DNA from: Paenibacillus polymyxa
Lineage (GTDB): Bacteria > Bacillota > Bacilli > Paenibacillales > Paenibacillaceae
NCBI RefSeq assembly: GCF_015710975.1
Contig: NZ_CP049783.1
Location: 4,755,501-4,819,500 of the forward strand
DNA: 64,000 nucleotides
Direction: 5' to 3'
Shown: positions 2,292 to 41,044 of the stretch, piece after piece
How the letters are laid out: every line of letters starts with the position of its first letter
Numbering within the stretch: the first letter of the stretch is position 1
Notes under the pieces: model-generated
What the model saw: only the letters and a program-made list of their open reading frames with translations
Told to the model about the DNA's origin: nothing
The model's database searches: none
Translations under genes and position numbers: made by a program

Positions 2292-2400
2292 AGGGTTCAC
2301 CTCGTCCGGTCATAATACATGTATTTTAGCATATTTTGAACAGCACTGGATGGGAGTAATCAAAGTAAAGAACAAGCTGACCGCCAAGAGAGGTGAAAGT

Positions 2401-25736: not shown

Positions 25737-25764
25737 AGTTTACATAATAATTATTATGTAGTAT
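25737..25764. repeat. dif-like Xer site 1
   Basis: Left arm AGTTTACATAA, 6-base centre TAATTA, right arm TTATGTAGTAT. The inner 20 bases (25741-25760) are a perfect palindrome. Same 11+6+11 layout as four other sites at 27181, 31956, 34533 and 40914. Left boundary of the cassette region. Confidence 0.65.
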
Positions 25765-26184
25765 ATAAACGAAATTATAGCTGGCAGAAAATGATGCTTG
25801 TACTTCATTGTAAGATGGGGCGATGGAGCCCCATGTTTTCGCTGTAATGCCGCTCTTTCAAAAATTAATTTTTAATAGTTTAAATGATAAGACATGTAGG
25901 CGTCCAGCAGAAATTTGTCATCAGGCAGACCAGTTCGGCCTGCTGTATAATCGGATGAATAAAAAAGGGTAACTACATAGACTGGACAAGAGAGACACGC
26001 TTTATTTATACTTAAAAAGAGCTCAAAAAAACTGCGTATAACATAAATTATACGCAGTTTAGGTTTAAAACGACTTTTAGATGCTCTCCTGCATAAGATG
26101 TCGATTGGATTGTCGATAAAAATCAGACGAAAATGATTGTTTTACAGCATTTTTCGGATTTTGAACTGAATGGAGGCAAGCACG
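25765..26184. other. Region upstream of the tyrosine recombinase gene
   Basis: About 420 bases with no supported gene. It holds a hairpin ATGGGGC/GCCCCAT (25815-25834), a TATAAT box (25946-25951), a minus-strand terminator-like hairpin (26021-26060) and the recombinase ribosome site GGAGG (26172). Confidence 0.5.
26021..26060 (-). terminator. Orphan terminator on the minus strand
   Basis: AAACTGCGTATA / TATACGCAGTTT, 12 perfect pairs, followed on the minus strand by T7. No minus-strand gene lies upstream of it, so it has no visible client. Confidence 0.6.
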
Positions 26185-27141
26185 ATGAAAAAAGAACTGC
26201 GTCATATGAATCTGGATACTATAGACGAAATTGATGAAGTGTATAATGAGGAGCTGGAAGCATTTTTGATCTGGATGAAGGATGCCGGATATACGATACA
26301 TACGCAAAAGAATTACACAGGGGATGTAAAACAGTTTTTACGTACATTGCGTGATAAACCACTCGACCAGGTGAAAAAGATTCATGTGATGTCATATTTA
26401 TCTAAAGCGCGGGAGGGAGGCGCCGGAGATAGTACGCGGAACCGCAAGCATGCTGCGGTGAATAGTTTTTTTAGAGCGCTACAGGAATTTGAATTATGCA
26501 GCACCAATCCGGCAGCGGGAATCAAAAAAGCAAAGACTGAAAAGAATCGTATGCCCGTTTATCTGGACGAGAAGGACATTCAGCCATTTTTGCTTGCGGT
26601 GGAAGGGAAATATGCAAATCGTAATATGGCTATTTTTCTGCTCATGGTCTACATGGGATTGCGGGTGGGGGAGGTTCATTCTTTGAATGTCTCGGATTAC
26701 AGCCGAGAAAGACGCACATTAGATGTGTTCGGTAAAGGGCGTAAATGGCGTACCCTGCCAGTACCAACGGCTGTATGTGATTTTATAGAGCAAGCGTTGG
26801 AGGAAAGATTGACGCCGTGGAGAGGTAAAGAAGACGCGATGTTCGTATCCCAAAAAGGCCGACGTCTGGCAGTGCGTTCTATTCAACAGATTGCTACAGA
26901 AACGTTTGAACGATTCCAGCAAGAAAAGGGTATAGAACGTCGAGAGGCTTATTCCAGTCATAAGCTGCGGCATACATTTGCGACGATGCTATTACGTAAG
27001 GGAGCAGATCTACGTACCGTACAGGAGCTACTAGGGCACTCATCCATCCAAACGACCACGGTATATACTCATGTTACAGATCGAGAAAAAGAAAAAGCGA
27101 TGGATAAGCTGGATATTCAGATCCCAATAACGGGATTGTAA
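26185..27141 (+). CDS. Tyrosine recombinase, XerC/XerD-like
   Basis: Site-specific recombinase of 318 residues. N-terminal SAM-like core-binding domain (LEAFLIWMKDAGYTIHTQKNY, opening LEAFLIWMK) and catalytic domain with Arg in GLRVGEVHSL, Lys in FGKGRKWRTLP, HKLRHTFATML, LGHSSIQTT and the nucleophile Tyr in TVYTHV, so the active site is complete. The ATG at 26185 is chosen because GGAGG has an 8-base gap to it; the ATG at 26170 lies on top of the ribosome site. The gene is the only one between two dif-like sites (25737 and 27181), which makes it the natural candidate to act on them. It is unlike the xerS product at 1191. Confidence 0.9.
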   Translation: MKKELRHMNLDTIDEIDEVYNEELEAFLIWMKDAGYTIHTQKNYTGDVKQFLRTLRDKPLDQVKKIHVMSYLSKAREGGAGDSTRNRKHAAVNSFFRALQEFELCSTNPAAGIKKAKTEKNRMPVYLDEKDIQPFLLAVEGKYANRNMAIFLLMVYMGLRVGEVHSLNVSDYSRERRTLDVFGKGRKWRTLPVPTAVCDFIEQALEERLTPWRGKEDAMFVSQKGRRLAVRSIQQIATETFERFQQEKGIERREAYSSHKLRHTFATMLLRKGADLRTVQELLGHSSIQTTTVYTHVTDREKEKAMDKLDIQIPITGL

Positions 27142-27180
27142 GTATGTTCCACGAGTGTATTGTATATTGAAATAAATTTA

Positions 27181-27208
27181 GGTTTACATAAATATTATTA
27201 TGTAAACA
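27181..27208. repeat. dif-like Xer site 2
   Basis: Left arm GGTTTACATAA, centre ATATTA, right arm TTATGTAAACA; the inner ten bases of the arms are perfect inverted repeats. It lies 39 bases after the recombinase stop. Confidence 0.7.
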
Positions 27209-27310
27209 AATTAAAAGAATTAAAACTTGAATTGCAAATTTTAACCATGATTTTACGTTCTTATTTAATAGCCAGTATCCTATGGTCTTGACAAAGGTAA
27301 TATTTTGCTA

Positions 27311-27367
27311 CAAGATTAGTGAGATCACTTTATAAATATGGTTTATGAAGTGGTCTTACTAATTTTG
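27311..27367 (+). promoter_or_regulatory. Large inverted repeat before the ROK regulator gene
   Basis: Two 20-base arms (27311-27330 and 27348-27367) separated by 17 bases. The three arm mismatches would all be G-U pairs in RNA. Inside it is a smaller dyad, CACTTTATAAA / TTTATGAAGTG. It ends 18 bases before the ATG and covers the expected promoter or leader, so it is either the regulator's operator or an RNA hairpin, or both. Confidence 0.55.
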
Positions 27368-27385
27368 TAAACAAAGGAGCACTGT

Positions 27386-28387
27386 ATGGAAAAAGCCAAT
27401 ACAAATTTAATTAAAGAAATAAACTTGAATCTGGTTCGCAAAGTATTGAAGCAGGTTAGCAAGGCCACAAAGCCCCAACTGGCCGCATTGACTGATTTAA
27501 GCGTGGTGACTATCAACACTCTTATGCAGGAATTGCTTAATAATGGAGAAATTTTTGAAGATGAAATCGTTCCTTCAAATGGTGGTAGACATGCGTTAAC
27601 CTATCGTTTTAATTATGAGTATAGTCTGGCACTGATTATACACATTAATGAAAAACAAGGAATGGATGTAGTATCGACCACGGTAGTTAATTTAAACGAG
27701 GACGTCCTCATGAAAGAAGAACATCCCTTTCAAATTTTTGATGCTACACAATTTTATTCCATAATTCAAAATATCATTTCTCTTTATCCCTCCATTAAAG
27801 TTATTGGTATTGGAATCCCGGGACAATCTGTAGATGGAGAGATTACAGTCAGCAGTCATGAAAGGTTGAATGGAATTCGGCTGGCAGAGGATGTGCAGAG
27901 CCAATTTGGTTTGCCAGTTATTGTGGAGAATGATGTAAATGCGGCTGTATGTGGATACGTTTACAGAGAACAGATCGATGAAGATCAATGTGTGCTAGCT
28001 GTCTATTTTCCTGAAAATTCACCACCGGGGATGGGAATTTATTTGCGTAATGGGGTTTTAAAGGGCAAGCATGGATTGGCTGGTGAAATCAAATTCCTTC
28101 CGTCTATAGTTTGGAATGAAAGCAAGGGAAGAGAAGTTTTTTTCAAAAGTGTATGTGAAATTATTCAAATATTACAGTCTGTATTCGATCCTAATCAAAT
28201 TGTGATCTATAGAGAGAATATAGAAGAAGAGGCTTTCTATCATTTTTTGGAAGCCTACAAAGCTAAGCATGAGATGCCTTTGTATCCTGACATTGTTCTC
28301 TCAGATTTATTTTATGAAGATTTTAAAACAGGGTTGAGAGGGTTAACTCTAAAAGAATTAGAACGTCCTATTATTGTCTTTAAATAA
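27386..28387 (+). CDS. ROK family transcriptional regulator (NagC/XylR-like)
   Basis: Sugar-responsive DNA-binding regulator of 333 residues. Residues 1-65 form a winged helix-turn-helix (LNLVRKVLKQVSKATKPQLA, then DLSVVTINTLMQELL); the rest is a ROK domain with IGIGIPGQSVDGE and VENDVNAAVCGY. The C-terminal part is short and lacks the Cys-rich zinc motif of the kinases, as is common in diverged regulators. It heads the sugar block 27386-31895 and probably binds the inverted repeats before itself and at 29850-29914. The gene is AT-rich compared with the flanking chromosome. Confidence 0.85.
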   Translation: MEKANTNLIKEINLNLVRKVLKQVSKATKPQLAALTDLSVVTINTLMQELLNNGEIFEDEIVPSNGGRHALTYRFNYEYSLALIIHINEKQGMDVVSTTVVNLNEDVLMKEEHPFQIFDATQFYSIIQNIISLYPSIKVIGIGIPGQSVDGEITVSSHERLNGIRLAEDVQSQFGLPVIVENDVNAAVCGYVYREQIDEDQCVLAVYFPENSPPGMGIYLRNGVLKGKHGLAGEIKFLPSIVWNESKGREVFFKSVCEIIQILQSVFDPNQIVIYRENIEEEAFYHFLEAYKAKHEMPLYPDIVLSDLFYEDFKTGLRGLTLKELERPIIVFK

Positions 28388-28420
28388 TGACATCATCGTA
28401 TTGAGCAGAGGAGGAAAGGA

Positions 28421-29641
28421 ATGTTGGCAACCTGGTTTCTGATTATTATTTATCTAGCGTTTATTAGCTTGGGAATCCCGGATTCCCTGTTTGGGGCAGC
28501 ATGGCCTGTGATGTGGCCGGAACTTGGGGCAGCTTTTGGGTCAGCTGGAATAGTATCCATGGTCGTTGCAGGCGGAACCATTGTATCAAGTCTAGCTAGC
28601 GGAAGTATCATTGAAAAAATAGGTACAGGTAAGATTACTCTATTGAGCTGCTTTTTGACTGCAGGAGCGTTACTTGGATTTTCTTTTGCGCCTTCATTAT
28701 TTTGGCTTGTACTATTAGCAATCCCTCTTGGACTTGGCGGGGGAGCTGTTGATGCAGCACTCAATCAGTATGTGGCTACTCATTATAAGGCACATCATAT
28801 GAGTTGGCTGCATTGCTTTTGGGGAGTTGGAGCTACGATGGGGCCGATAATTATGTCTTTCTACATTTCGAACTACAATTCATGGAGAAGTGGTTACACA
28901 GCCGTATCCATGATTCAGTGGGGCCTTGTTATTATTTTGCTCATTACACTGCCATTATGGAAACGTGTTACCGCGATACAAAATCCCATTATTTCTGAAT
29001 CCCCATCAGACTACTCACAGATGGATGACAATATCGTACATGTTGAGAACATACCCAAACAAAATCCAATTCGAATGAAAGGAGTTAAGAACACGCTCAT
29101 TGCTTTTTTGTTTTATTGTGGTGTGGAAGCCACGGTGGGCTTATGGGGAGCCAGCTATTTGGTAGGCGCAAGGAACATCACAGCCGACACTGCTGCTGGT
29201 TGGATATCTTTATACTATGGTGGAATCACGGTTGGCAGGCTTATTACGGGGTTTGTAACTATAAAAATAAATAATGGTATGTTAATCCGAATTGGCCAAC
29301 TTACTGCTGTTGCAGGAGGACTCATTTTGTTGCTTCCTTTGCCTGTTGCCTTTTTATTACCCGGTTTTATTCTTATTGGTTTAGGGCTTGCGCCGATTTA
29401 CCCTGGACTTCTTCATGAAACACCAACACGGTTTGGTAAGGAAAATTCCGCTAAACTCATGGGGTATCAAATGGCAGTTGCTTATACAGGAACGACTTTG
29501 CTCCCGCCCATTTTTGGGATTATAGCTTCACAGGTAAGTATTCATTTTTTTCCAGTTGCAGTCGTTGTGTTCCTTCTTTTTATGCTGCTCAGTTCAGAAC
29601 AAGTGAATCGGATACTGAAGAAGAAAATTTTGAAGAGTTAA
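28421..29641 (+). CDS. MFS sugar transporter (FucP-like)
   Basis: Major facilitator permease of 406 residues with about twelve membrane helices. The first loop has IIEKIGTGKITLLSC, equivalent to the MFS loop-2 motif, and GLGGGAVDAALNQYVATHY is typical of sugar:proton symporters of the FucP/YfkF kind. Starts with ATG after GAGGAGGAAAGGA, 33 bases after the ROK regulator, so probably one transcript. Its location between a ROK repressor and a ROK kinase suggests uptake of a mono- or disaccharide; the sugar is unknown. Confidence 0.87.
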   Translation: MLATWFLIIIYLAFISLGIPDSLFGAAWPVMWPELGAAFGSAGIVSMVVAGGTIVSSLASGSIIEKIGTGKITLLSCFLTAGALLGFSFAPSLFWLVLLAIPLGLGGGAVDAALNQYVATHYKAHHMSWLHCFWGVGATMGPIIMSFYISNYNSWRSGYTAVSMIQWGLVIILLITLPLWKRVTAIQNPIISESPSDYSQMDDNIVHVENIPKQNPIRMKGVKNTLIAFLFYCGVEATVGLWGASYLVGARNITADTAAGWISLYYGGITVGRLITGFVTIKINNGMLIRIGQLTAVAGGLILLLPLPVAFLLPGFILIGLGLAPIYPGLLHETPTRFGKENSAKLMGYQMAVAYTGTTLLPPIFGIIASQVSIHFFPVAVVVFLLFMLLSSEQVNRILKKKILKS

Positions 29642-29654
29642 GACAAATTACAAC

Positions 29655-29674
29655 TTGACCTGAAACGCGTTTCA
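29655..29674 (+). promoter_or_regulatory. Palindromic operator-like site before the 39-residue peptide gene
   Basis: TTGACC (possible -35) is followed directly by the perfect palindrome TGAAACGCGTTTCA (29661-29674). The palindrome is of LacI-family style, but its centre is GC rather than CG, so it does not fit cre. Confidence 0.45.
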
Positions 29675-29720
29675 TCGGCTAAAGTAAATATATAACCTAA
29701 AAGAGAAAGGAGAGTACCCT

Positions 29721-29840
29721 ATGATCTCACTCATTTTATTGTGTTTAGTTATATGGGGGGGAACGTATTGTTGTTTAGTGTTATCAAGAGATCCTATAGA
29801 AGTAAAGCCTTACCGCTCCATCGATGATTTTTTCGAGTAG
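29721..29840 (+). CDS. Small single-pass membrane protein (39 residues)
   Basis: A 40-codon frame starting with ATG after a strong ribosome site (AAGGAGAGTACCCT). The product begins MISLILLCLVIWGGTYCC, one membrane helix, then a short acidic tail ending DDFFE. It is preceded by a promoter-like TTGACC and a 14-base palindrome. No family recognised. It lies between the sugar transporter and the HAD phosphatase genes and may be a small partner or regulator of one of them; that is a guess. Confidence 0.5.
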   Translation: MISLILLCLVIWGGTYCCLVLSRDPIEVKPYRSIDDFFE

Positions 29841-29849
29841 CTTTGTATC

Positions 29850-29914
29850 CACTTAATAAAGATGCTTTTTTTACTCACTTTATTAACATGTTTAATTAAG
29901 TGATTTATGAAGTG
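29850..29914 (+). promoter_or_regulatory. Cluster of half-sites resembling the ROK regulator operator
   Basis: CACTTAATAAA (29850), CACTTTATTAA (29876), TTTAATTAAGTG (29891) and TTTATGAAGTG (29904) repeat the motif CACTTNATAAA and its complement found in the dyad before the ROK regulator (27326-27352). This is consistent with the regulator also controlling the downstream HAD and ROK kinase genes. Confidence 0.45.
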
Positions 29915-29915
29915 A

Positions 29916-30066
29916 ACCGAATCTGTTTCGAGCCCATTACATTGGATAGGTTTTGCTAAAGGTCGAGATACGAATACAAGGGAGTGGGACAATGTGGGGA
30001 TTGAAAATGTCTTAGGTTAATAGAGACTTTGATATTGATCCCTGGAAAGAACATAAAAAACCGTAA
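29916..30066 (+). pseudogene. Possible remnant of a degraded coding sequence
   Basis: A 34-codon stretch (29916-30020) ending RDTNTREWDNVGIENVLG and a 16-codon stretch in another frame (30016-30066) ending RDFDIDPWKEHKKP read like natural protein. They overlap at the point where a single frameshift would join them. Neither has a start. No family recognised; chance is possible. Confidence 0.25.
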
Positions 30067-30114
30067 GTATGAACTGACAGGTAGGAAACTCTAACAATTA
30101 AGGGAGGCTTATTT

Positions 30115-30921
30115 ATGTTTAAACTGGTAGTAAGTGATTTGGATGGTACTTTTCTGAACAATAGTGGTACTTTTGATGTTGAATTATTTAATCAGGTGTA
30201 CGGAGAGATGAAAGAAAATAATATCGCCTTTGTTGCTTGTACAGGTAAGCAATGTGAAAGAGTAGAAGAGTTGTTTGATGAGCACGGAAAAGGAATCTGG
30301 ATTTTGGGAGACAGTGTTACTCGTATTAAAAGGGATGGAGTTGTTGTAAAAGAGTTTACAATTGAACGTAATTTGGCATTACAAGCGATCAGTCAAATTG
30401 AAGCTTTCGCTAAGGATTTTATTATCATCGCATGTACAACTGAAGCAGCCTATGTCCACTCTCAAATTCAAGAGGAATATTACAAGATTGTGAAGGGCTC
30501 CTACAAGGAAGTGCTGAAGATTGATTCGTTTGATCAAATAAATAGCAACTTTCTTAAAATAACTGTTTACGATCCATCAGGGAGAAGTTCCATTTTAAGA
30601 AAACATGTTGAAAAGACGCTGCTAGACCAAATTTATATTGTAGATTCTGAAGCAAATTGGCTGGATATTACAGCCCTTCATACCCATAAAGGGGAGACGG
30701 TAAGAAAACTCCAAGAGATATTGGGTGTTACTATGGACGAAACCATGTCTTTTGGAGATGGTGAAAATGACGTGGAGCTTATGAGTATTGCCAAATACAG
30801 TTTTGCTGTAAAAAATGCTTGTGAGAATACTAAAAATGCAGCAAGTTTTATCACCAAATCCAATGAAGAGAACGGTGTGTTATTAACGATAAAGAAAATG
30901 ATGGATTTACAAAAGCATTAA
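30115..30921 (+). CDS. HAD superfamily Cof-type sugar phosphatase
   Basis: Predicted cytoplasmic phosphatase of 268 residues. HAD motif I is DLDGTFLNN (residues 8-16), motif II ACTGK, and motifs III/IV are in KGETVRKLQEILG and SFGDGENDVELM. The C2-type cap in the middle makes it Cof-like, acting on sugar phosphates or similar. The start follows AAGGGAGGCTTATTT. It is followed by the ROK kinase gene and probably co-transcribed, so a role in handling the same sugar as the MFS transporter is likely. Confidence 0.88.
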   Translation: MFKLVVSDLDGTFLNNSGTFDVELFNQVYGEMKENNIAFVACTGKQCERVEELFDEHGKGIWILGDSVTRIKRDGVVVKEFTIERNLALQAISQIEAFAKDFIIIACTTEAAYVHSQIQEEYYKIVKGSYKEVLKIDSFDQINSNFLKITVYDPSGRSSILRKHVEKTLLDQIYIVDSEANWLDITALHTHKGETVRKLQEILGVTMDETMSFGDGENDVELMSIAKYSFAVKNACENTKNAASFITKSNEENGVLLTIKKMMDLQKH

Positions 30922-30989
30922 TATTAATTATCGTTATTAAGAGATACACTCCAGATTTCACATTACCCAATGAGAGGACTATAAGCAGC

Positions 30990-31895
30990 ATGAAAAATAA
31001 AATACTGGTTTTTGATATTGGTGGCTCTTTTATTAAATTCAGTTTATATTTTCAAGATAAATTTATGACGAAAGGTAAAGTTGCTACACCATTAGATTCA
31101 CTAGAGAATCTGCTTATAGTCTTGAAGCAAATTCATAATCAGTTTATAGATGAATGTGAAGGAGTAGCCGTCAGCATGCCAGGTATTGTGGACTCGGTCA
31201 CTGGTCATATGGTGCATGGTGGTTCGTTAAGGTATATAAACGATATCAATATGATCGAAGTTTTCAAGAAAGCGTTTCATTTGCCTGTAGCTATTGAAAA
31301 TGATGGGAAGTGTGCAGCTCTTGGAGAAGTATGGCGCGGCTCACTACAGGGGATCGCTGATGGTGTTGTTTTGGTAGTTGGAACAGGAATGGGCGGTGGA
31401 ATCATCTCTCAAGGAAAATTGCTGAAAGGTCATCATTTATCGGCTGGGGAATTCTCCTTCATCAGAACTAACAATGAGCATGCAGACAATGTTGATTATC
31501 TGCTTGGTATGCAAGGGAGTAGTTCTGTTTTAGCTAAAACTGTTGCCAAGGCTAAAGGACTTCCTGAAGATGCTATAACAGGTGAAAGAGTATTCAAGCT
31601 TATTGAAGAAGGTGATCACACGGTACAAAAGATTTTTCAAGAATACTGTAGGAACATCGCAACACAAATTATTAATTTACAAACAATTCTTGACCCTCAA
31701 AAGTTTGTGATCGGGGGAGGCATATCTGCCAATCCTTTGCTGGTTGCTACCATTAAAGAAGAATTAGAGAAGCTTTACCTGCATTCGATCTTAAATTTTG
31801 TGCGTGCAGATATTGAACAAAGTAAGTTAGGCAATGAAGCGAATTTGCTAGGTGCTATATACAACTACATGCAGTCACACCATCTTGAGGTATAA
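30990..31895 (+). CDS. ROK family sugar kinase
   Basis: Sugar kinase of 301 residues. N-terminal phosphate-binding FDIGGSFIKFSLY, VSMPGIVDSVTG, the catalytic Asp in IENDGKCAALGE and ATP loop VGTGMGGGII are all present; FVIGGGISANPLL is in the C-terminal half. The CxCGxxGC zinc motif of most ROK glucokinases is absent, as in beta-glucoside kinases such as BglK, so a disaccharide could be the substrate. Last gene of the sugar block, followed by a terminator and dif-like site 3. Confidence 0.87.
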   Translation: MKNKILVFDIGGSFIKFSLYFQDKFMTKGKVATPLDSLENLLIVLKQIHNQFIDECEGVAVSMPGIVDSVTGHMVHGGSLRYINDINMIEVFKKAFHLPVAIENDGKCAALGEVWRGSLQGIADGVVLVVGTGMGGGIISQGKLLKGHHLSAGEFSFIRTNNEHADNVDYLLGMQGSSSVLAKTVAKAKGLPEDAITGERVFKLIEEGDHTVQKIFQEYCRNIATQIINLQTILDPQKFVIGGGISANPLLVATIKEELEKLYLHSILNFVRADIEQSKLGNEANLLGAIYNYMQSHHLEV

Positions 31896-31903
31896 GATAA
31901 AAT

Positions 31904-31952
31904 AAAAGCAAAAGAGCGTGCCTTGATACTTAAGACACGCCTTTTTGCTTTT
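31904..31952 (+). terminator. Terminator at the end of the sugar block
   Basis: GCGTG/CACGC core with outer AAAAGCAAAAG / CTTTTTGCTTTT, T-rich on the plus strand. It ends 4 bases before dif-like site 3. Confidence 0.8.
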
Positions 31953-31955
31953 GTT

Positions 31956-31983
31956 AGTTTACATAATATATATTATTTTTATT
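31956..31983. repeat. dif-like Xer site 3
   Basis: Left arm AGTTTACATAA, centre TATATA, right arm TTATTTTTATT (decayed after four bases). It lies between the 3' ends of two convergent genes, where an operator would have no purpose. Confidence 0.6.
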
Positions 31984-32013
31984 TGTTTAATACGTATAAC
32001 ATTTCAAAGCAAC

Positions 32014-33975
32014 TTATTTTTCATTTTCCGGGGGAGATTCAATTATCAGCCCCTGAACATGCTTGCGCGTTAGAAGCTTCCGTTTTTTGCGGTTTTCCTT
32101 TGTTTCTAACACAATATCCAAATCATAGTCGTCAGGATACAATTCTGTTGCAGCGATGTGAAGAGTGAGCCTCTTTTTGTTTATGATCAGTTTTTGTCCT
32201 TGAATCAAAATTCCAACATTGCCTCGTTCATCCTCGGTTTTGTAAACAATACCGGTTCGATCTAGGTAGCTGGCATAAACACTATCTCCAAGAGCAAATG
32301 GCTTGGTTATGAGCGGGTGCTCTTGTTTTCCCTGTTTTGCGACTGTGCGGTCTGTAGATGCTTTTTTAGAGGCAGGTTTAAATACATCGTCAGACTTTTT
32401 ATCATCAAAAGAAGGGGGAATAACCAAAAACTCCTGTGCATCCTGAGACGTTCTTCCAGCAGAAATGGCCTCAGAACGCTCGATAATGCGAGTCCACATG
32501 CCTAGCTTCAAAGCAATTGCGTATGCGTAGCTTTCCCCGGCCTCGCCGATGCGAAGTCGGTACAAGGGTTGCAACGTTTCGGTATCAAACTCCATACGAG
32601 CATTTTGGAACCCCGGTGTGTTTTCAGCAAAATGCTTGATTTCGCTAAAGTGCGTGGTAGCCACTACTGTCGCACGGCGACGATGAAATTCTTCCAGCAA
32701 CGCGATAGATAGGCCTACGCCTTCTCCCGGATCAGTACCAGAGGCCATTTCGTCGATCAGGATCAGAGTAGAGCTGCCTGCCGTTTCCAAAATGCCAATC
32801 ATATTGCGAATATGAGCAGAAAAGGTGCTCAAAGCATGTTCAATGCTTTGGCCATCCCCGATGTCTACCACAATGTCCTCGAATACAGCCATTCGGCTAC
32901 CTTGCAAAACAGGTACCAGCAGGCCGGATTGCACCATGAGTGTTAACAAACCTACGCTTTTGAGAGCCATCGTTTTTCCGCCTGTATTCGGCCCGGTAAT
33001 AATAAGTGAAGAATAACCTTCACCAATTGAGAAATCAAGCGGCACCATAGTATGGGCCATCAATGGGTGACGTGCACCATAGATATCTATTATCCCATCA
33101 TCGTTAAGCTCGACAGAGACAGCATCCAGAGTCATAGCGTATTTGGCTTTAGCTAATAAAAAATCCAGTATGCCTACCGTCTCTGTATTAATGCTTAGTT
33201 CACGGTTGTATGACTCAGCCATTGCGGTCAGGTCTCCTAGCACTTTCATTTCCTCTTTTGATTCTTCTGCCATATTTGCGCTCTGTTCGAATTGCAGATT
33301 TATGATCTCGGCAGGTTCCACATAGACGGTCTGACCGCTACCTGACTCATCCAGTACATTGCCTTTCACCTGTTTGCGGAATTCTTTTTTGATCGGAAGG
33401 ACGTAACGGCCATTGCGCTGACTGATCATATTTTCCTGCATGATGGATCGGTGACGGCTGATAAGAGAATCTAGTTTCCTCTTGATACGTTCTTCAGTAA
33501 CTGCAATTTTTTTGCGAATTTTAGCTAGTTCTTTACTGGCATTATCCGTTACTCGACCCGAATAAATGCATCTCTCGATTTCGGATAGGAGTGACTCCAT
33601 GCCATACATGGAAGAGGCATAAGCACTGACGGTTGGAGCTGAATCCGCCTTGGCATGCATATATTTCATCAGCTGCATGCAGCTTCTGATGAATTGGGCC
33701 AAATGAGAAAAATCACGCTCGCTGAACATATAGCCAGTTCCCAAGAGGTGCAGAATGTGCTCCATTCCTTCCAATGAAGGAACAGGTACGCTAGCTCCGT
33801 GGCGAATGAGCTGTAAAGCTTCGCTCGTTTCGTTAAGACGAATTTTGATTGTACGGATATCTGTAATTGGCTGCATGGAAGCGGCATGCTGCTTACCTAG
33901 GTATGAAAAAGCACATTCAGACACTCTTGTTTTAATCTGGTCATATTCCAAACGCAACATTGTAGTTTCATTCAT
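32014..33975 (-). CDS. MutS2-like ATPase without Smr domain
   Basis: 653-residue relative of MutS2 (RqcU), whose family members sense or split stalled or collided ribosomes and were formerly linked to recombination. Order: clamp and lever helices with a coiled coil (about 140-260), ATPase domain with Walker A GPNTGGKT (328-335), Walker B LILIDEMASGTDP (about 404-416) and THFSE, then a Lys-rich linker and a KOW-like domain (about 560-606, GDSVYASYLDRTGIVY). Normal MutS2 (about 785 residues) ends in an Smr nuclease domain; here the protein stops after a basic tail. It is the sole gene between dif-like sites 3 and 4 and has a long attenuator leader. Likely a ribosome-acting paralogue; the role is inferred. 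Confidence 0.85.
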   Translation of the reverse strand: MNETTMLRLEYDQIKTRVSECAFSYLGKQHAASMQPITDIRTIKIRLNETSEALQLIRHGASVPVPSLEGMEHILHLLGTGYMFSERDFSHLAQFIRSCMQLMKYMHAKADSAPTVSAYASSMYGMESLLSEIERCIYSGRVTDNASKELAKIRKKIAVTEERIKRKLDSLISRHRSIMQENMISQRNGRYVLPIKKEFRKQVKGNVLDESGSGQTVYVEPAEIINLQFEQSANMAEESKEEMKVLGDLTAMAESYNRELSINTETVGILDFLLAKAKYAMTLDAVSVELNDDGIIDIYGARHPLMAHTMVPLDFSIGEGYSSLIITGPNTGGKTMALKSVGLLTLMVQSGLLVPVLQGSRMAVFEDIVVDIGDGQSIEHALSTFSAHIRNMIGILETAGSSTLILIDEMASGTDPGEGVGLSIALLEEFHRRRATVVATTHFSEIKHFAENTPGFQNARMEFDTETLQPLYRLRIGEAGESYAYAIALKLGMWTRIIERSEAISAGRTSQDAQEFLVIPPSFDDKKSDDVFKPASKKASTDRTVAKQGKQEHPLITKPFALGDSVYASYLDRTGIVYKTEDERGNVGILIQGQKLIINKKRLTLHIAATELYPDDYDLDIVLETKENRKKRKLLTRKHVQGLIIESPPENEK

Positions 33976-34033
33976 GGATAAATCTCTCCTTTAGTTGTGT
34001 ATTGACAGGATTTTTTAAAACCTTTCTGAAAAA

Positions 34034-34079
34034 CAAAAAAAGGGCGGAGAATGAACAAAACGTTCATTCTCCGCCCTTT
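34034..34079 (-). terminator. Leader terminator T2 before the MutS2-like gene
   Basis: Eighteen perfect pairs (34039-34056 with 34062-34079), 5-base loop, T7 on the minus strand. It sits 58 bases upstream of the start codon, so transcription must read through it for the gene to be expressed. Confidence 0.88.
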
Positions 34080-34228
34080 AAGGGAGAGGGAGTGTATCAT
34101 CAAATAAGCCTATAATCCAGCATGTGCTCTCATCAATTCTGCGTTTTAATCCACAGGCCAACCAACATATCAGTTCATTGGCTTATGAATAGAAAAACGT
34201 GTAAAAGGAGTTCACAAAAGTTGGAAAC

Positions 34229-34255
34229 AAAAAAACCGTGCTGAACACAGCACGG
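34229..34255 (-). terminator. Leader terminator T1 before the MutS2-like gene
   Basis: CCGTGCTG / CAGCACGG with a 4-base loop, then T7 on the minus strand. Confidence 0.88.
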
Positions 34256-34400
34256 AATAAGGCCTAGATGAAAATAATCCCTAAGGCGATTTATGATATC
34301 CGCATGTTCTTAACTAATACCAGGGTAAAAACTCAGCAAGAAACAAACCTGTCCCTAAAGGGTACAAGCGCCTGATGGTCTTCCCTGAATATGCAATTGC

Positions 34401-34424
34401 TTAGTTAAGAACGTTCACCGACAT
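34401..34424 (-). CDS. Leader peptide MSVNVLN
   Basis: ATG, six codons and TAA, with ribosome site AAGGGAGAG six bases upstream. The product is the heptapeptide MSVNVLN. Codons 4 to stop form one arm of the perfect 12-base inverted repeat with 34306-34317. It is probably a sensor of ribosome stalling rather than a functional peptide. Confidence 0.65.
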   Translation of the reverse strand: MSVNVLN

Positions 34425-34457
34425 TAAAATCTCTCCCTTAATTGAAGATCTATCCAT

Positions 34458-34487
34458 AATATACGATCAGACAGGTAATGAAGTCAA
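34458..34487 (-). promoter_or_regulatory. Promoter of the MutS2-like gene leader
   Basis: On the minus strand TTGACT (34482-34487), 18-base spacer, TATATT (34458-34463). It lies 46 bases inside dif-like site 4, so the cassette carries its own promoter. Confidence 0.65.
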
Positions 34488-34532
34488 GGGCAACTTCTTC
34501 AATTCGATGTAAAAGTGACCATGAGGATAATG

Positions 34533-34560
34533 GGTTTATGTAATATATATTATGTAAACC
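34533..34560. repeat. dif-like Xer site 4
   Basis: Left arm GGTTTATGTAA, centre TATATA, right arm TTATGTAAACC. Centre plus right arm match the Bacillus subtilis dif site (as I recall it: TATATA then TTATGTAAACT) in 16 of 17 bases. Confidence 0.7.
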
Positions 34561-34572
34561 CATTACTCAACG

Positions 34573-34611
34573 AATGATTATCATCTTTTAATTGAGAATG
34601 ATAATCATTAT
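34573..34611 (+). promoter_or_regulatory. Double Fur box before the AraC regulator gene
   Basis: AATGATTATCATC (34573-34585) and TGAGAATGATAATCATTAT (34593-34611) both fit the Fur core TGATAAT-N-ATTATCA closely. Predicts iron control of the regulator and probably of the ABC genes behind it. Confidence 0.8.
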
Positions 34612-34677
34612 AATTGTAATGGTGAATGAAACTCGTATGTCCTGCGAATCCAGCTATAAGAAGGAAGTGATGACAAG

Positions 34678-35667
34678 ATGAAGACACAAACTTCACCGTC
34701 TACTTTTAATGAATATTTTAATCAGATAATCGATTCCAACTTAATGATTCATGAAAATAGCTCCACTCCAGCAGGAATACAGCACGAACATTTTTATCAG
34801 ATACCCGAAAAGTGGGGAGACGGAATACATCGAACACATTTTTTACGCAATGGCCTTGAGCTATCACAAAGCAAAATGTTATTTCATGAGCCAGTCCAGA
34901 TATCAAGAAGAATTGATAAGCCTTATCTGGAGTTGGCACTAAACATCGATTATTCCGCCACTTGGTCTGTGGATGATTTTCGTTCAGATCGTGAGCACGG
35001 GGGACATGTACAGCTCGTCTACATGAATGATGTGAAGATTCACGCAGAGATAGCAGCTAGTAATGTGATGAATCATCTAGAGCTGCGTTTTAATCCATTG
35101 CTATGGCAAGAGTTACTACAGGAACTGGGTATTCGTTTGGAGCAATCTTTTGCTTGCATAGAAGCGTTGATTACTCCTGATATGCGGGCTATTGCTCAGG
35201 AATTGTCGTCTCATTCTTATGAGGGCATAACCCGTCAGCTTTTCTTGGAGAGCAAGACGCTGGAATTGATGGCTCTGTTTTTGCAAGAAATACGCACTTC
35301 TCCACCTAAACTTTCTATGACAATTAAACCCACTGATGTGCAATGTATTCACGAGGCGCGAGACATTTTACTCCGTACACTGGTGCAGCCTCCCAGTCTG
35401 ATTCGGTTGGCACAGATGGTACATATTAATGAGCAAAAACTGAAAAATGGCTTTAAAGAGCTATTCGGCACAACAGTATTTGGCTTTGTGCGCCAGCAGA
35501 GACTGGAAAAAGCCAAGCAACTGCTAGAACAGGAGCAGATTTCAGTCAGTGAAGCGTCAGCGATAGTCGGCTATAGTAACTTTAGTCATTTTGCCGCACT
35601 ATTCCGTAAAACATATGGCTACAATCCAAGTGCCTACCGAAAAAATAAGAATTTATGCTCCTTATAA
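34678..35667 (+). CDS. AraC family regulator (YbtA/PchR-like)
   Basis: Transcription activator of 329 residues. The N-terminal two thirds is a ligand-binding region without a clear motif; the C-terminal 100 residues are an AraC double helix-turn-helix (LIRLAQMVHINEQKLKNGFKELFG, core LAQMVHINEQKLKNGF; then VSEASAIVGYSNFSHFAALFRKTYGYNPSAYR, core GYSNFSHFAALFRK). PchR/YbtA-type regulators sense an iron-siderophore and switch on its transporter. A double Fur box lies upstream and two ABC genes downstream, which supports that role. Start ATG after GAAGGAAGTGATGACAAG. Confidence 0.88.
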   Translation: MKTQTSPSTFNEYFNQIIDSNLMIHENSSTPAGIQHEHFYQIPEKWGDGIHRTHFLRNGLELSQSKMLFHEPVQISRRIDKPYLELALNIDYSATWSVDDFRSDREHGGHVQLVYMNDVKIHAEIAASNVMNHLELRFNPLLWQELLQELGIRLEQSFACIEALITPDMRAIAQELSSHSYEGITRQLFLESKTLELMALFLQEIRTSPPKLSMTIKPTDVQCIHEARDILLRTLVQPPSLIRLAQMVHINEQKLKNGFKELFGTTVFGFVRQQRLEKAKQLLEQEQISVSEASAIVGYSNFSHFAALFRKTYGYNPSAYRKNKNLCSL

Positions 35668-35805
35668 AACCTTCATCTTTATAAAACTCTCCTTCCAGTG
35701 GTGATGTTTCTCCCGGAATTGGCGGTAGGAAGCAGAATGTGGGCCTACAATAGACACAGGCTCAAGCATTCTGCAACTGCCGTATTTGGAAAGGAGAAAT
35801 GATTC

Positions 35806-37644
35806 ATGCAACCAAAAACGGGCATTGCCCGATTACTTCAAATCGCTGGGGAAAAACGCGGATTACTTGCTGTTTCCGCTTTATTTTCCGGTTTAAGTGC
35901 CATTTTCATGCTGGTGCCTTATGCTTCAGTTTATTTTGTACTCAAGGAGCTACTTGAGCACGCTGCACAACCTACAACAGCAGACGGGCCATTGATGATT
36001 CAATGGGGACTGATTGCTTTAGCAGGTTTATTAGCCAGCCTTATTACAATGTACATCGGCGGGCTTATCTCACATATTGCGGCTTTCCGTATTTTATACG
36101 GCTTACGCGTCAAGCTGTCTGCGCACATCGGTAAGCTCCCCTTAGGATGGCTTAATGGCACTTCCACGGGGGCTGTCAAAAAGACCTTGGAGCAAAATGT
36201 GGAAAAAGTAGAGACGTTTGTCGCTCACCAATTACCGGATCTGGTGCAGGTTATCGTGACAGCAGTAGTGATGATTGTTGCCATGTTTAGCTTGAATATA
36301 TGGTTGGCGTTCGCTTGTATCGTGCCGATTCTGCTTGCTTTCACCGTTCAAATGAGGCTGATCGGTGGCTCCAAAACACAGGATAACATCAAGGAATATT
36401 ACAACTCACTGGAACGTCTAAACGGATCGGCTGTGCAGTATGTCCGTGGTATACCCGCAATCAAGGTGTTTGGACAGACGGTGCATTCGTTTCGTAAGTT
36501 TTATTCCGATATGGTGCATTATCGTGAATATTGCATGAGATTCACTGACCAATTTGAAACTGGTTTTCTCGTCTTTAAGGTAATTATTGGCTCATTCGCT
36601 GCTTTTGTACTTCCTGTCGGTGTATACCTGTTGAGTGGTAACCCGCAGAATGTTGCATTTGCCTCGGTGTTACTATTTTTTCTGGTAATGGCCCCCGGGG
36701 TGTCAGCACCCATGTTTAAAATTATGCATCTCATGTCTTCAATGCGTGATATTAATGAAGGCGTTGATCGGATTGACCGTATTTTTAAAGAACCTGCAAT
36801 ACAAGAGCCAGCACATCCGCAAAAGCCGACTACTTATGATGTGCAGTTCGAGCAAGTTTTCTTTTCCTATGGAAACACAGAAGAGGTTAACAAGCATGAG
36901 GACGGAGATGACAATCCATCGACCTATGTGCTGTCTAATATCACTTTTACGGCAAGACAAGGGAAAATGACCGCTTTAGTCGGCCCGTCTGGTTCCGGTA
37001 AATCGACGATCGCCAATTTGGTGCCGCGTTTTTGGGATGTACAGGAAGGTGCAGTCCGCATTGGTGGGGCCGATATCCGCCTGATGAGCACATCTAACCT
37101 GATGGATACGGTTGCTTTTGTATTTCAGGAAACTTTTTTGTTTTATGACTCCGTATTTAACAATATTGCCGTAGGTGATGCGAAGGCTTCTATGGAGCAG
37201 GTTATAGCGGCTGCAAAGGCAGCACAGTGTCATGAGTTCATTTGTAAGCTGCCGAACGGCTATGATACGCTCATCGGAGCTGGAGGGGTATACCTATCGG
37301 GCGGAGAAGAGCAGCGACTTGCGGTAGCACGTGCCATTCTCAAAAATGCACCTATTCTCGTATTGGATGAAGCTACGGCATTTGCTGATCCTGAAAATGA
37401 ATATGAAATGCAGCTGGCATTAAAAGAACTAATGAAAAACAAGACGGTTATTGTTATTGCACACCGTTTGTCTACTATTCAGCATGCGGATCAGATTCTG
37501 GTGCTTCAGGAAGGACGTATTGCTGAACGGTGTCAGCACAGTGAGTTGCTGGAAGTAAACGGCCTGTATGCCCACTTATGGCAGGCCTACACGGATGTCG
37601 GACAATGGCAGATTGGGGCACGGGAAGAGGAGGCGGCTCAATGA
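35806..37644 (+). CDS. Exporter-fold ABC siderophore transporter, first half (YbtP/IrtA-like)
   Basis: 612-residue fused membrane-ATPase protein. Six helices in residues 1-320; ATPase with Walker A GPSGSGKST, signature LSGGEEQRLAVAR and Walker B LVLDEATAFADPENEYE. The DEATAFADPENE variant is, as I know it, typical of the iron-siderophore importers YbtP and IrtA, which have an exporter fold but import. An insertion of about 20 acidic residues (around 360-380) precedes Walker A. Its stop overlaps the next ABC gene, so the two are coupled and presumably form a heterodimer. Confidence 0.88.
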   Translation: MQPKTGIARLLQIAGEKRGLLAVSALFSGLSAIFMLVPYASVYFVLKELLEHAAQPTTADGPLMIQWGLIALAGLLASLITMYIGGLISHIAAFRILYGLRVKLSAHIGKLPLGWLNGTSTGAVKKTLEQNVEKVETFVAHQLPDLVQVIVTAVVMIVAMFSLNIWLAFACIVPILLAFTVQMRLIGGSKTQDNIKEYYNSLERLNGSAVQYVRGIPAIKVFGQTVHSFRKFYSDMVHYREYCMRFTDQFETGFLVFKVIIGSFAAFVLPVGVYLLSGNPQNVAFASVLLFFLVMAPGVSAPMFKIMHLMSSMRDINEGVDRIDRIFKEPAIQEPAHPQKPTTYDVQFEQVFFSYGNTEEVNKHEDGDDNPSTYVLSNITFTARQGKMTALVGPSGSGKSTIANLVPRFWDVQEGAVRIGGADIRLMSTSNLMDTVAFVFQETFLFYDSVFNNIAVGDAKASMEQVIAAAKAAQCHEFICKLPNGYDTLIGAGGVYLSGGEEQRLAVARAILKNAPILVLDEATAFADPENEYEMQLALKELMKNKTVIVIAHRLSTIQHADQILVLQEGRIAERCQHSELLEVNGLYAHLWQAYTDVGQWQIGAREEEAAQ

Positions 37645-39365
37645 TGAGAATGTTGCAAAGTATCACGGCTGGAAATCCAAGGGTACTGTTAAAACCGGTA
37701 TTATACACAACCTTAGCCAATATCGCAGGGTTGGTTCCTTTTGCCTTGCTGGTAGGGGCGGCCCGTCTGATTTTCGAGCCTTTCATCCATCCGGGAGCTT
37801 CGCTCCAATCTGCTGGCTTATGGTGGATTAGTGGAGGTCTGCTCCTGTCGCTACTTCTGCTGTTTCTGTGTGAGATTCCGGCTTATCGTTCCCAATACCG
37901 TGGAGCCTATGATGCCTCGGTAACCGGGAGGTCGCGTCTAGCTGAGCATTTGCGTAGACTATCTCTGGGATTTCTGAACAAACGCGATCCCGGTGACCTA
38001 GCCAATATGATGATGGGTGATTTTACAATGGTGGAACATGGGATTTCCCATTTGGTGCCGCAGATGATCGGGGCGGTGACGATGCCGCTTTTGGCATTAA
38101 TTGGATTATCCTTTTTAGATTGGCGGATGGCGCTGGCATTGTTTGCTGCTTTTCCGGTGGCCATTTTGTTGGTATTGCTTACTTCCCGTATCCAGCGGCG
38201 GCTGGGGGCCAATCATATGCGTGCCAAAATCAATGCTGCGAATCGTCTACAGGAGTATTTAAATGGTATTCGGGTGATTAAAGCCTACCAGCTAACTGGT
38301 GAGCGTTTTGTCCGGCTGGAGCTTGCGTTTAGAGAACTGATGCGGCACAGCATCCGTATTGAAGGGTTGTTAGGACCGATTGTATTGGCTGCTATTGCTT
38401 TCATGCGGTCTGGCTTGACGTGGATGGTTATGATCGGTGTATATCTACTGCTGGCGGGTCAGATGGATGTTATTGTGTTTGTTTCTTTTCTGATTGTAGG
38501 AACACGTATTTATGATCCCCTAACCACTGCACTTGTAAACTTCGCTGAATTTAGATACCACGAGCAGGCAGGTGAACGTATCGTCCAATTGCTGAACGAG
38601 CCAGTGATGCCGGGTGACCAGTTGCCTTCGGAGAGACACGATATTGAACTAAGAAACGTAAGTTTTGGATATGGTGATCAGCCAGTATTGCGGAATGTGA
38701 GTATGTCTATGCCGTTTCGTTCTTTCACAGCACTAGTAGGACCCTCCGGCAGCGGAAAAAGTACGGTATTGCGGATGATTGCCCGCTTTTACGACCCGGA
38801 TCAGGGCAGCGTGCTATTAGGTGGAAACAACATACAACAGATGAATACGGAAGCGCTATTGCGCAAGATATCTATGGTGTTCCAGGATGTATATCTGTTT
38901 CAAGATACCATTGCGAACAATATTCGATTTGGCAAAAGCGATGCTACACAGGAAGAAATCGAAGCTGCTGCTCGCCAAGCTTGTTGCCATGATTTTATAT
39001 CCAGGCTACCCAAGGGATATGATACCCGGGTAGGTGAGGGAGGCAGTACGTTATCGGGCGGCGAGAAACAGAGGATATCCATTGCCCGCGCTATACTTAA
39101 AAATTCGCCGATTGTTTTGCTAGATGAAGCTACGTCTTCGCTGGACCCTGAGAATGAAAGGGATATTCAGCAGGCTATTAATCGTCTTGTACAAGGTCGA
39201 ACAGTTATTGCGATTGCTCATCGGCTCAAAACGATTCGAAACGCAGACCGTATTGTAGTGTTGGACAAAGGAAGGGTCGTGGAGCAGGGAAGACATGATG
39301 AACTGTTGGATAACAACGGCCTATATGCACGATTGTGGAACAGACAGCATGAGGTAAGAGAGTAA
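37641..39365 (+). CDS. Exporter-fold ABC siderophore transporter, second half (YbtQ/IrtB-like)
   Basis: 574-residue partner of the preceding protein. Membrane domain residues 1-320; Walker A GPSGSGKST, signature LSGGEKQRISIAR, Walker B IVLLDEATSSLDPENERD, H-loop IAHRLKT. An open frame reaches back to 37578, but the ATG at 37641 overlaps the upstream stop (ATGATGA) and has GAGGAGG in front. Gene order AraC-ABC-ABC matches ybtA-P-Q. Confidence 0.88.
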   Translation: MMRMLQSITAGNPRVLLKPVLYTTLANIAGLVPFALLVGAARLIFEPFIHPGASLQSAGLWWISGGLLLSLLLLFLCEIPAYRSQYRGAYDASVTGRSRLAEHLRRLSLGFLNKRDPGDLANMMMGDFTMVEHGISHLVPQMIGAVTMPLLALIGLSFLDWRMALALFAAFPVAILLVLLTSRIQRRLGANHMRAKINAANRLQEYLNGIRVIKAYQLTGERFVRLELAFRELMRHSIRIEGLLGPIVLAAIAFMRSGLTWMVMIGVYLLLAGQMDVIVFVSFLIVGTRIYDPLTTALVNFAEFRYHEQAGERIVQLLNEPVMPGDQLPSERHDIELRNVSFGYGDQPVLRNVSMSMPFRSFTALVGPSGSGKSTVLRMIARFYDPDQGSVLLGGNNIQQMNTEALLRKISMVFQDVYLFQDTIANNIRFGKSDATQEEIEAAARQACCHDFISRLPKGYDTRVGEGGSTLSGGEKQRISIARAILKNSPIVLLDEATSSLDPENERDIQQAINRLVQGRTVIAIAHRLKTIRNADRIVVLDKGRVVEQGRHDELLDNNGLYARLWNRQHEVRE

Positions 39366-39395
39366 TAGTCTGTATGAACTCAGGATACAAACATT

Positions 39396-39441
39396 AAGAA
39401 ACCGCCCCGGGAGATGTCATATCTACCAAGGGCGGTTTCTT
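39396..39441. terminator. Bidirectional terminator between ABC and MFS genes
   Basis: AAGAAACCGCCC / GGGCGGTTTCTT, 12 perfect pairs between convergent genes. Confidence 0.75.
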
Positions 39442-39447
39442 GTGGTG

Positions 39448-40668
39448 TTATTCAGAATCATCGGCTATGACAGCTTGTACAGGCTGCCTGTCACGTAGCA
39501 ATGGTAACAACAGCATCGCTCCCAGTAAAAATAAACCGGCACTCACGGTATATACGGTGTTCAGGGAGGATTCGCGTTTGAGTGTACCGCCGATGCTCAT
39601 ACCCACGACCATCATCCCCGAGAACAGGGGAGAGAGGGCACCACCAACGCGGCCGATAAAAGCAGCTTCGGCATTTTTCATCATCATCGTGTTGATACCA
39701 ATATGAATGCAAGGATAAAATAGACCGCTGAGTACTTGCAATGCCATTGTCAGCACAATATTGTGCGACCATCCGACTCCAAAGGTTGTCAGTGTGCTGA
39801 CCAGAAGTCCAGTCGCCAGCAGCAATTGCGGCTGGACTTTTTTGGCAACCCCCATAATCAGACCGCCGCCCAACAGCATAGCCGCTCCGTTCGCCATTAA
39901 TGGCCATTGAAGAAATTCCTTGTTTTGCCCAAGGTTCTCGATAGCTACAAAAACCATTAATGGTTGAATAAGTCCGACCGCCAGCCCAATTATGGTAAAT
40001 GTTCCTCCAAGCGTGCGAAGTGTACGGTTATTCCATACATAACGTATTCCTTCTTTAAGCTCTTCAATGAAATGAGTTGGTCGATCTATCTCAATTACTT
40101 GCTCATCTTGTGGGATACGAGTTAGAACAAGCGCAGAGATAAGAAACAACATTCCTGTTATAGACAATGAAGAGAAAATTCCAAAGTGTTGATAAATAAA
40201 TGTACCGACGACAGGACCGATAACCATAAATAATGCCATGAGAGACTGAAAAAGAGCCATCACTCCCTGAAGCTGTTCTGGTGCTACATGCTGCTTTAAT
40301 ATTTTCATCGCAGATGGCTGAGAAAATTGAGATAGAATGGCCGAGAAGAAAGTGGATAGCAAGAGCACCTGCCATGACCCGTACCATAATGCGAGCAACA
40401 CGATAAAAATAGACGCGGCCGACAGCAGATCGCAACTAACCATTGTCCGTTTAGGCCGCCAACGATCTGCAAATGTACCTCCAATGATGGCAAACAGAAA
40501 GATAGGCGCAAATTCAGCAACCGAAATGAGCGATACGTATACAGGATCATTATGGGTCAGATCTGTTACATACAACAGTATGGCAAAGTTCCGCACCCAG
40601 ATGCCAAAATTTAGCAACGCATTGGAGGCGATAATGGTCCTTATATATGGATTTTTAAACAACAACAA
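39448..40668 (-). CDS. MFS transporter (siderophore-associated)
   Basis: Major facilitator of 406 residues with about twelve membrane helices and the loop-2 motif GGTFADRWRPKRTM. It resembles the EntS/multidrug group. It converges on the ABC pair within the same dif-bounded block, where the yersiniabactin system has the MFS protein YbtX, so a siderophore-related job is likely. The start lies among three consecutive TTG codons (40668, 40665, 40662); the third has the best spacing to AAAGGAGAG, so the true protein may be two residues shorter. Confidence 0.83.
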   Translation of the reverse strand: MLLFKNPYIRTIIASNALLNFGIWVRNFAILLYVTDLTHNDPVYVSLISVAEFAPIFLFAIIGGTFADRWRPKRTMVSCDLLSAASIFIVLLALWYGSWQVLLLSTFFSAILSQFSQPSAMKILKQHVAPEQLQGVMALFQSLMALFMVIGPVVGTFIYQHFGIFSSLSITGMLFLISALVLTRIPQDEQVIEIDRPTHFIEELKEGIRYVWNNRTLRTLGGTFTIIGLAVGLIQPLMVFVAIENLGQNKEFLQWPLMANGAAMLLGGGLIMGVAKKVQPQLLLATGLLVSTLTTFGVGWSHNIVLTMALQVLSGLFYPCIHIGINTMMMKNAEAAFIGRVGGALSPLFSGMMVVGMSIGGTLKRESSLNTVYTVSAGLFLLGAMLLLPLLRDRQPVQAVIADDSE

Positions 40669-41044
40669 ACTCTCCTTTCCAGTTTTCAGAATATTTACTT
40701 GAATATTTTTATAAACAAAATTAGAATTTGTCTATATAATAATAGATAATATAATAAATATACTGTTATTTAGTCAAATGTTTTTTGTAATCCCTGAATA
40801 AAATAGAGAATAGAAAAGGAAATAGTCAATCATGCAAAAAAGCGGATTAGAATAGAAGAGGGGTGGATCACTACATATTTACAAATTGGATGGTATATCC
40901 AAATAAAAAAACAAAATTACATAATAAATATTATGTTAACTATTGCGTGTCTATTATCTATCAGAATCTGAATCCGATGTACCTTTTAAAATCATAGTGA
41001 TATAATTACGCGTACATGCCTGAAAAGGAGCGTATAGAACGTAA
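40669..41044. other. AT-rich intergenic region with dif-like site 5
   Basis: 376 bases between divergent genes. Apart from the Xer-like site at 40914-40941 it is very AT-rich (40700-40790 especially). No Fur box of good quality, no short ORF with a ribosome site. Confidence 0.5.
40914..40941. repeat. dif-like Xer site 5
   Basis: Left arm AAATTACATAA, centre TAAATA, right arm TTATGTTAACT. The right arm differs by one base from TTATGTAAACT. Right boundary of the cassette region. Confidence 0.6.

Follow-up and report, generated by a model that had tools for sequence, protein, structure and literature searches.

A fixed array of XerD-type candidate sites and a recombinase with its own palindrome near the replication terminus of Paenibacillus polymyxa

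Are the five dif-like sites that punctuate a stretch of the Paenibacillus polymyxa chromosome the edges of mobile gene cassettes, as a first-pass annotation of this DNA proposed, or fixed elements of the replication terminus? The stretch, hereafter the window, is the whole 64 kb analyzed (G000:C1:4755501-4819500, on the 5.916-Mb main contig of a 5.96-Mb genome); the sites form what we call the array, and between the first two lies the gene of an Xer-type tyrosine recombinase (REC), which has a palindrome of its own. The sites are very probably not the edges of mobile cassettes. At a probability of roughly 65%, we favor an explanation in which: i) the five sites would stay as terminus elements, with the gene content between them changing by ordinary deletion; ii) REC and the palindrome at 26032-26057 would have taken over the resolution of chromosome dimers from XerC/XerD at canonical dif; and iii) XerD would be retained as a DNA-binding protein that sits on the array and, its active site decayed, no longer recombines. 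A further step, that array-bound XerD unloads SMC complexes at the terminus as XerD (RipX) does in Bacillus subtilis, is drawn by analogy, and we would put it just short of even odds. Read directly from sequence are the position, the site classes, the lack of canonical XerC, the altered XerD active site and the palindrome linked to REC; recombination by REC at this palindrome, dimer resolution, occupancy of the array by XerD and the SMC role are predictions from them.

The comparison covered 59 genomes (the own one included), of which 36 belong to the own genus, 41 carry REC and 18 do not, together with 71 named Paenibacillus loci with REC (1.44 Mb in total) and 7 close relatives of the window, in which the presence of a site was judged at one set cut-off. 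On the main contig the coordinates of dnaA and REC are 1.867 Mb and 4.782 Mb, which puts REC 0.493 of the way round from dnaA; the 15 own-genus genomes whose main contig is near-complete give values of 0.427-0.577. Judged by these positions, the window is near the replication terminus.

The five sites claimed at 25737, 27181, 31956, 34533 and 40914 are real, their 6-bp centre is kept and their number is above chance. Each was scored as a 26-mer, which begins one base later than claimed, with mismatches counted in the left/right arm against GTTTACATAA / TTATGTAAAC: site 1 (25738-25763, minus strand; 0/3) lies 432 bp upstream of REC beside the gene aiiA; site 2 (27182-27207, strand undirected; 0/0) lies 43 bp past REC, is built of the XerD arm and is the sole perfect palindrome of the five; site 3 (31957-31982, minus strand; 0/4) has one arm far from the consensus; site 4 (34534-34559, plus strand) scores 2/0 and site 5 (40915-40940, plus strand) 2/1. 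The claim that the 64 kb holds no other such site held up as well: nothing further passed the window-scan cut-off (no more than 3 mismatches, or up to 5 in total where one arm is perfect), and 10 Markov-1 sequences of like composition gave 0. In the own 5.96-Mb genome there were five places with at most 3 mismatches, the match limit used for the array unless stated otherwise, and four of them were in the cluster (site 3, with 4 mismatches, is not counted), while the control, which was the array pattern reversed, gave 0.

The array extends well beyond this strain. Matches were found in 49/59 genomes, and the 36 own-genus genomes held 127 of them vs 16 for the reversed control. In the 71 REC loci there were 79 exact TTATGTAAAC arms vs 4.3 expected, and each of the 79 was paired at 6 bp with another arm of up to 4 mismatches, perfect palindromes being counted twice; by arm spacing, 108 sites fell at 6 bp and 0-2 at each of the spacings 2-5 and 7-11. 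At the cut-off used, 61/71 loci had at least one array site. Moreover, in 16 near-complete genomes (the 15 own-genus ones and G036) 47 of the 53 array-type places were within ~110 kb of REC, and the remaining six share one off-terminus sequence type. The proposal that the sites are of Xer type is upheld, as their arm matches exactly the XerD arm in the canonical dif of relatives and their spacing is exactly 6 bp. Their genome-wide confinement to the terminus also means that they are not scattered promoter elements, a case for which the first-pass annotation had allowed. From arms, centre and position, the array sites look like fixed XerD-type candidate binding sites, and the clustering of XerD-arm sites near the terminus is as expected of sites at which XerD unloads SMC.

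REC itself (26170-27141, plus strand) is a protein of 323 amino acids in which the catalytic R, K, H, R, H and Y are all there; the six residues were intact in 3/3 REC sequences checked. It scored 205.6 bits against the XerC model (cut-off 335) and 180.5 bits against the XerD model (cut-off 329.6). In a tree REC formed a clade of its own with megaplasmid relatives (support 100/99) outside both XerC+XerD and XerS, and the idea of a diverged XerC was rejected on this ground. REC is present in 36/36 own-genus genomes, and the closest named sequence is that of P. ottowii (95%). Relatives occur on large plasmids (12 records, one being pHD01; the records L273-L278 and L282-L286 come from Paenibacillus, Rossellomorea and Niallia), with a palindrome just upstream in most, and the patterns used found no relative in viral contigs. 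Outside the own genus there are five REC genes that are chromosomal and more distant (G036, G040, G047, G055 and G058).

The palindrome of REC (26032-26057, plus strand; CTGCGTATAA-cataaa-TTATACGCAG) is the sixth in the region, was absent from the first-pass annotation and is provisionally taken as the dif of the REC system. It has the same 10-6-10 build as the array, here perfect, in another sequence. At up to 4 mismatches CTGCGyATAA-N6-TTATACGCAG or a close form occurred once per locus in 69/71 loci (the two loci that miss it are contigs of 12 and 8 kb), always upstream of REC, from -127 to -9909; 69 matches had the 6-bp spacing and 0-3 any other, and the centre was polarised, being tataaa or cataaa in 54/69. 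In the own genome the 984 kb scanned (about 17%) held one match at the same limit. Since it lies within 900 bp of REC in 20/71 loci, it is not simply the operator of REC. Linkage also recurs among relatives under other sequences: the five chromosomal genes outside the genus have a 10-6-10 palindrome other than that of the own genus at -81 to -227 (5/5, at most 1 mismatch), and 7/11 plasmid relatives have an exact palindrome at -60 to -62, in three distinct arm sequences, against a background of 0.24 exact palindromes per kb. Among the other plasmid relatives, one has a palindrome with 1 mismatch at -64, pART37 and pY5S7-1 have 2-mismatch palindromes only, and that of Rossellomorea is unlike the rest.

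REC thus offers what a single-recombinase system would be expected to have, an Xer-type recombinase whose catalytic residues are intact and, close to the terminus, a linked site of its own. Because of this linkage, the position, the polarised centre and the intact active site, we consider it quite likely that REC and its palindrome are a single-recombinase system for chromosome-dimer resolution. Use of the sites by phages was considered and rejected: an exact match to the REC palindrome was found in one viral contig (L307) and the array palindrome in one contig, and a BLAST search of phages with the 30-mer gave weak matches only.

What has become of the usual pair? In the XerC-model search 12/59 genomes passed the cut-off and 0/36 of the own genus did. 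In the own genome trmFO abuts hslV, and xerC sits between these two genes in 7/7 relatives tested. Canonical XerC seems to be lost from the own genus, as far as model scores and gene order can tell. Canonical dif, searched with a pattern typed from B. subtilis dif (ACGTCCGATAA-TATATA-TTATGTAAAC or close), was found in 6/59 genomes, all with XerC-like genes, and in 0/36 of the own genus; the own genome had no B. subtilis-like dif at up to 3 mismatches. The right (XerD) arm of canonical dif is the array arm. One genome, G036, holds XerC, XerD and a REC relative together with three separate site classes: one canonical dif is flanked by two perfect XerD-arm palindromes at distances of 81 kb and 44 kb, and the REC relative has a palindrome distinct from both classes.

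XerD is still present (361 bits in the own genome vs a cut-off of 330), encoded after a gene that we take to be fur-like and before what is presumably a purine-nucleoside-phosphorylase-like gene. Its active site is altered. Numbering residues by what we take to be the Escherichia coli scheme, the position of K172 is A, E, D, N, S or T in 22/22 own-genus sequences, R148 is K in 4/22 and H270 is N in 1/22, and 11/22 have a one-residue gap before the tyrosine. Outside the genus, the lysine is kept in the XerD of G036, G038, G053 and G040 and not in that of G047. These changes suggest that the XerD active site has decayed and that its role on the array is most likely DNA binding, not recombination. 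Given the identity of the arm, the confinement to the terminus and the loss of active-site residues, the array is likely bound by XerD as a non-recombining protein.

Several observations weigh against this explanation. i) The 18 genomes without REC had 11 array matches vs 8 for the control, which is near background, so that the array tracks REC and not XerD alone. ii) The two arms of array sites are unequal beyond chance (206 vs 169 +- 12) and are oriented mostly one way (72 plus, 23 minus and 25 equal), which would suit a two-protein site such as one for XerD and REC. iii) The XerD nucleophile Y279 as well as H244 and R247 are kept in 22/22 own-genus sequences, and some alignment rows have gaps in the hairpin around K172, so some activity is possible. 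iv) The absence of canonical dif from the own genus is weak evidence, because the pattern found 6 genomes vs 12 with XerC. v) The sign of the GC skew switches near 4.89 Mb, ~110 kb rightward of the cluster; the offset is ~1.9% of the contig, and in the part of a survey that we used dif and skew-shift positions differ by at most 3% (PMC3025954). vi) As RNA, the REC palindrome has a favorable fold (z -4.07), so that a terminator is possible in the window. vii) The gene xerS is also terminus-proximal, often 15-30 kb from REC, and array sites lie inside the examined xerS flanks in 8/30 loci.

The first two of these points speak for the alternative that survives best, in which the array consists of recombination sites of a REC-XerD pair, with several dif sites of which the one adjacent to REC is the main one. 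It would account for one arm being strict and the other looser about a fixed 6-bp centre, and an array site (at most 4 mismatches) does lie within 350 bp of the REC 3' end in 26/41 REC genomes, all of the own genus. However, the lysine of XerD is lost in 22/22 own-genus sequences and REC has a conserved palindrome of its own; no array site lies near the 3' end of REC in its five chromosomal relatives from outside the genus; no clean site-to-site deletion was found among the 7 close relatives compared; and the centres differ between array sites but are not private to each site of a genome, so that recombination between direct repeats would delete the terminus. Private centres as a guard against such deletion were considered, and they are unsupported: 4 of 73 within-genome pairs had equal centres, with 3.9 expected. 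We regard a REC-XerD pair acting on the array as unlikely.

A further Xer recombinase gene, missing from the first-pass account of the window, raises the second alternative. xerS (1191-2300, minus strand; 382 bits against NF003462, cut-off 267) was found in 51/59 genomes at E<=1e-50, and XerS could resolve dimers while REC is a megaplasmid leftover. xerS passes the cut-off in 36/36 own-genus genomes, lies close to REC as noted above, and is the sole XerC/D/S-type match in G043, G054 and G057 at the cut-offs used. On the other hand, the flanks of xerS in 30 loci had no strong shared palindrome, a regular-expression search of them being empty too, and REC with its palindrome, present in 36/36 own-genus genomes and 69/71 loci, is unlike a leftover. 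We consider this reading improbable. As observations apart, xerS lies ~0.7-2.4 kb from a canonical-dif match in G038 and G039; G043, G054 and G057, which are of one family, have XerS with neither an XerC/XerD-type match at E<=1e-50 nor REC; and G050, of the same genus as that group, has one weak XerC/XerD-type match (195 bits).

The genes between the sites bear on the proposal of a chromosomal cassette array whose blocks would move at the centres of the sites. Between sites 2 and 3 lies a sugar unit (ROK regulator, MFS transporter, HAD phosphatase and ROK kinase; 27386-31895, plus strand), between sites 3 and 4 a MutS2-like gene (32014-33975, minus strand), and between sites 4 and 5 an AraC regulator and two ABC transporter genes on the plus strand with an MFS transporter on the minus strand (34678-40668). 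As in a pdif array, Xer-type sites of ~28 bp with a 6-bp centre bound these blocks, and the gene content between sites varies among the 7 close relatives. The flanking genes are collinear, however, and site 2 is fixed at the REC 3' end in 7/7; conservation in place is partial for the others, as sites 1, 3, 4 and 5 were found in 2, 5, 4 and 6 of 7. The MutS2-like gene is in all seven, the sugar unit has decayed variably and the last unit is lost piecemeal. AraC-ABC-ABC is lost with differing ends in G014, G033, G032 and G015, with the MFS gene of the unit retained, and the same genes are lost in G007; a 42-bp araC remnant is left in G014, pieces of ABC genes in G033 and G007, and scraps of the ROK regulator between two retained array sites in G033, while the deletion in G015 takes site 4 with it. 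Because recombination from site to site would produce a single remaining site without scraps, excision of cassettes is rejected, and the claim that the sites bound mobile cassettes was not borne out: no whole-block gain, loss or reordering with breakpoints at site centres was seen in the 7 relatives, and the breakpoints indicate decay by deletion.

Two outcomes that the first-pass annotation named as refuting its proposal, sites conserved in place and breakpoints off the site centres, were thus seen in part. Some alignments resume within a few bases of a site (site 5 in G035, G007 and G006); a restart at the site edge is also explained by a conserved site in a diverged spacer. pHD01 (NZ_CP013204.1, L279-L281, 115.5 kb, labelled 'plasmid') was considered as an excised circle and rejected, since the record begins within the gene to the left of xerS instead of at a site; its genes include REC, XerS, MutS2 and others of the terminus, which probably makes it a chromosomal contig mislabelled as a plasmid. 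The cassette array is thus largely refuted and very improbable, and an array of dif-like sites alone is not evidence of mobile cassettes. Least credible of all is that the array sites are transcription-factor operators and the REC palindrome a terminator or REC operator: sites 1 and 4 do lie directly upstream of aiiA and araC and the palindrome can form a stable hairpin, but across the genome the array keeps to the terminus, site 3 is flanked by convergent genes, and the palindrome keeps its sequence and centre despite its variable distance upstream of REC.

Three features of the neighboring genes were noted beside these results. The neighbor of site 1 (24962-25717, minus strand) encodes an aiiA-type quorum-quenching lactonase (405 bits vs a cut-off of 375), and site 1 and aiiA co-occur in 2/7 close relatives (G014 and G015), both being absent from the other five. 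The MutS2-like protein has 653 amino acids and its match stops at model position 517/790, so that it seems to lack the family's C-terminal portion. After site 4 and before the AraC-ABC genes, 34534-34620 holds two stretches that we take to be Fur-box-like.

To our knowledge, XerCD/dif is regarded as a nearly universal means of resolving chromosome dimers; our literature search, with most subscription journals outside its reach, found no paper on dimer resolution in Paenibacillus. If our explanation is true, here is a genus in which XerC was replaced by a single megaplasmid-type recombinase and XerD kept with a damaged active site and numerous terminus sites, a natural separation of the recombination role of XerD from its terminus role, and the SMC-unloading idea would become testable beyond B. 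subtilis. More tentatively still than the SMC step itself, we suggest that the two jobs of XerD are split across Paenibacillus: a megaplasmid-type recombinase would resolve dimers, XerC would be lost, and a recombination-dead XerD on a widened palindrome array would unload SMC.

The system resembles and departs from known ones on each of these counts. With XerC/XerD (CodV/RipX) and canonical dif it shares the arm, that of XerD in relatives, and XerD itself; it differs in that the own genus lacks XerC over the cut-off and canonical dif, and has an altered XerD active site. Karaboja and colleagues reportedly found in 2021 that B. subtilis XerD unloads SMC at the terminus and that recombination is not required. 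XerD-type sites are grouped around the terminus here as there, whereas many sites here are XerD-arm palindromes, XerC is absent, and binding and unloading are putative. In the parts of the sources used, SMC unloading at the B. subtilis terminus is XerD-dependent (PMC13220808, PMC12322038), and the former, a review, describes RipX as needed for it at ter. XerL/dif of Legionellales, in the sections of the study drawn on, is likewise a single tyrosine recombinase with a terminus-proximal site and a plasmid connection (Coxiella xerL is on a plasmid), and dif of Legionella pneumophila has perfect dyad arms of 10 bp, as the REC palindrome has (PMC9765430). The same sections place that dif >400 kb from xerL, whereas the REC palindrome is linked to REC at up to ~10 kb, and report XerL activity (PMC9765430), whereas that of REC is predicted from sequence. 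XerS/difSL of streptococci and lactococci and XerH/difH of Helicobacter and Campylobacter, as given in the part of the source consulted, share the linkage of recombinase gene and site at the terminus, but difSL has an 11-bp centre and uneven arms (PMC5357621), whereas the REC site has perfect 10-bp arms about 6 bp and REC falls outside the XerS clade. Finally, the dif modules of Acinetobacter, in the portion of the report that we used, also have several dif-like sites in a row with intervening genes (PMC12907356); in Paenibacillus, by contrast, the sites stay put and the blocks between them decay by deletion.

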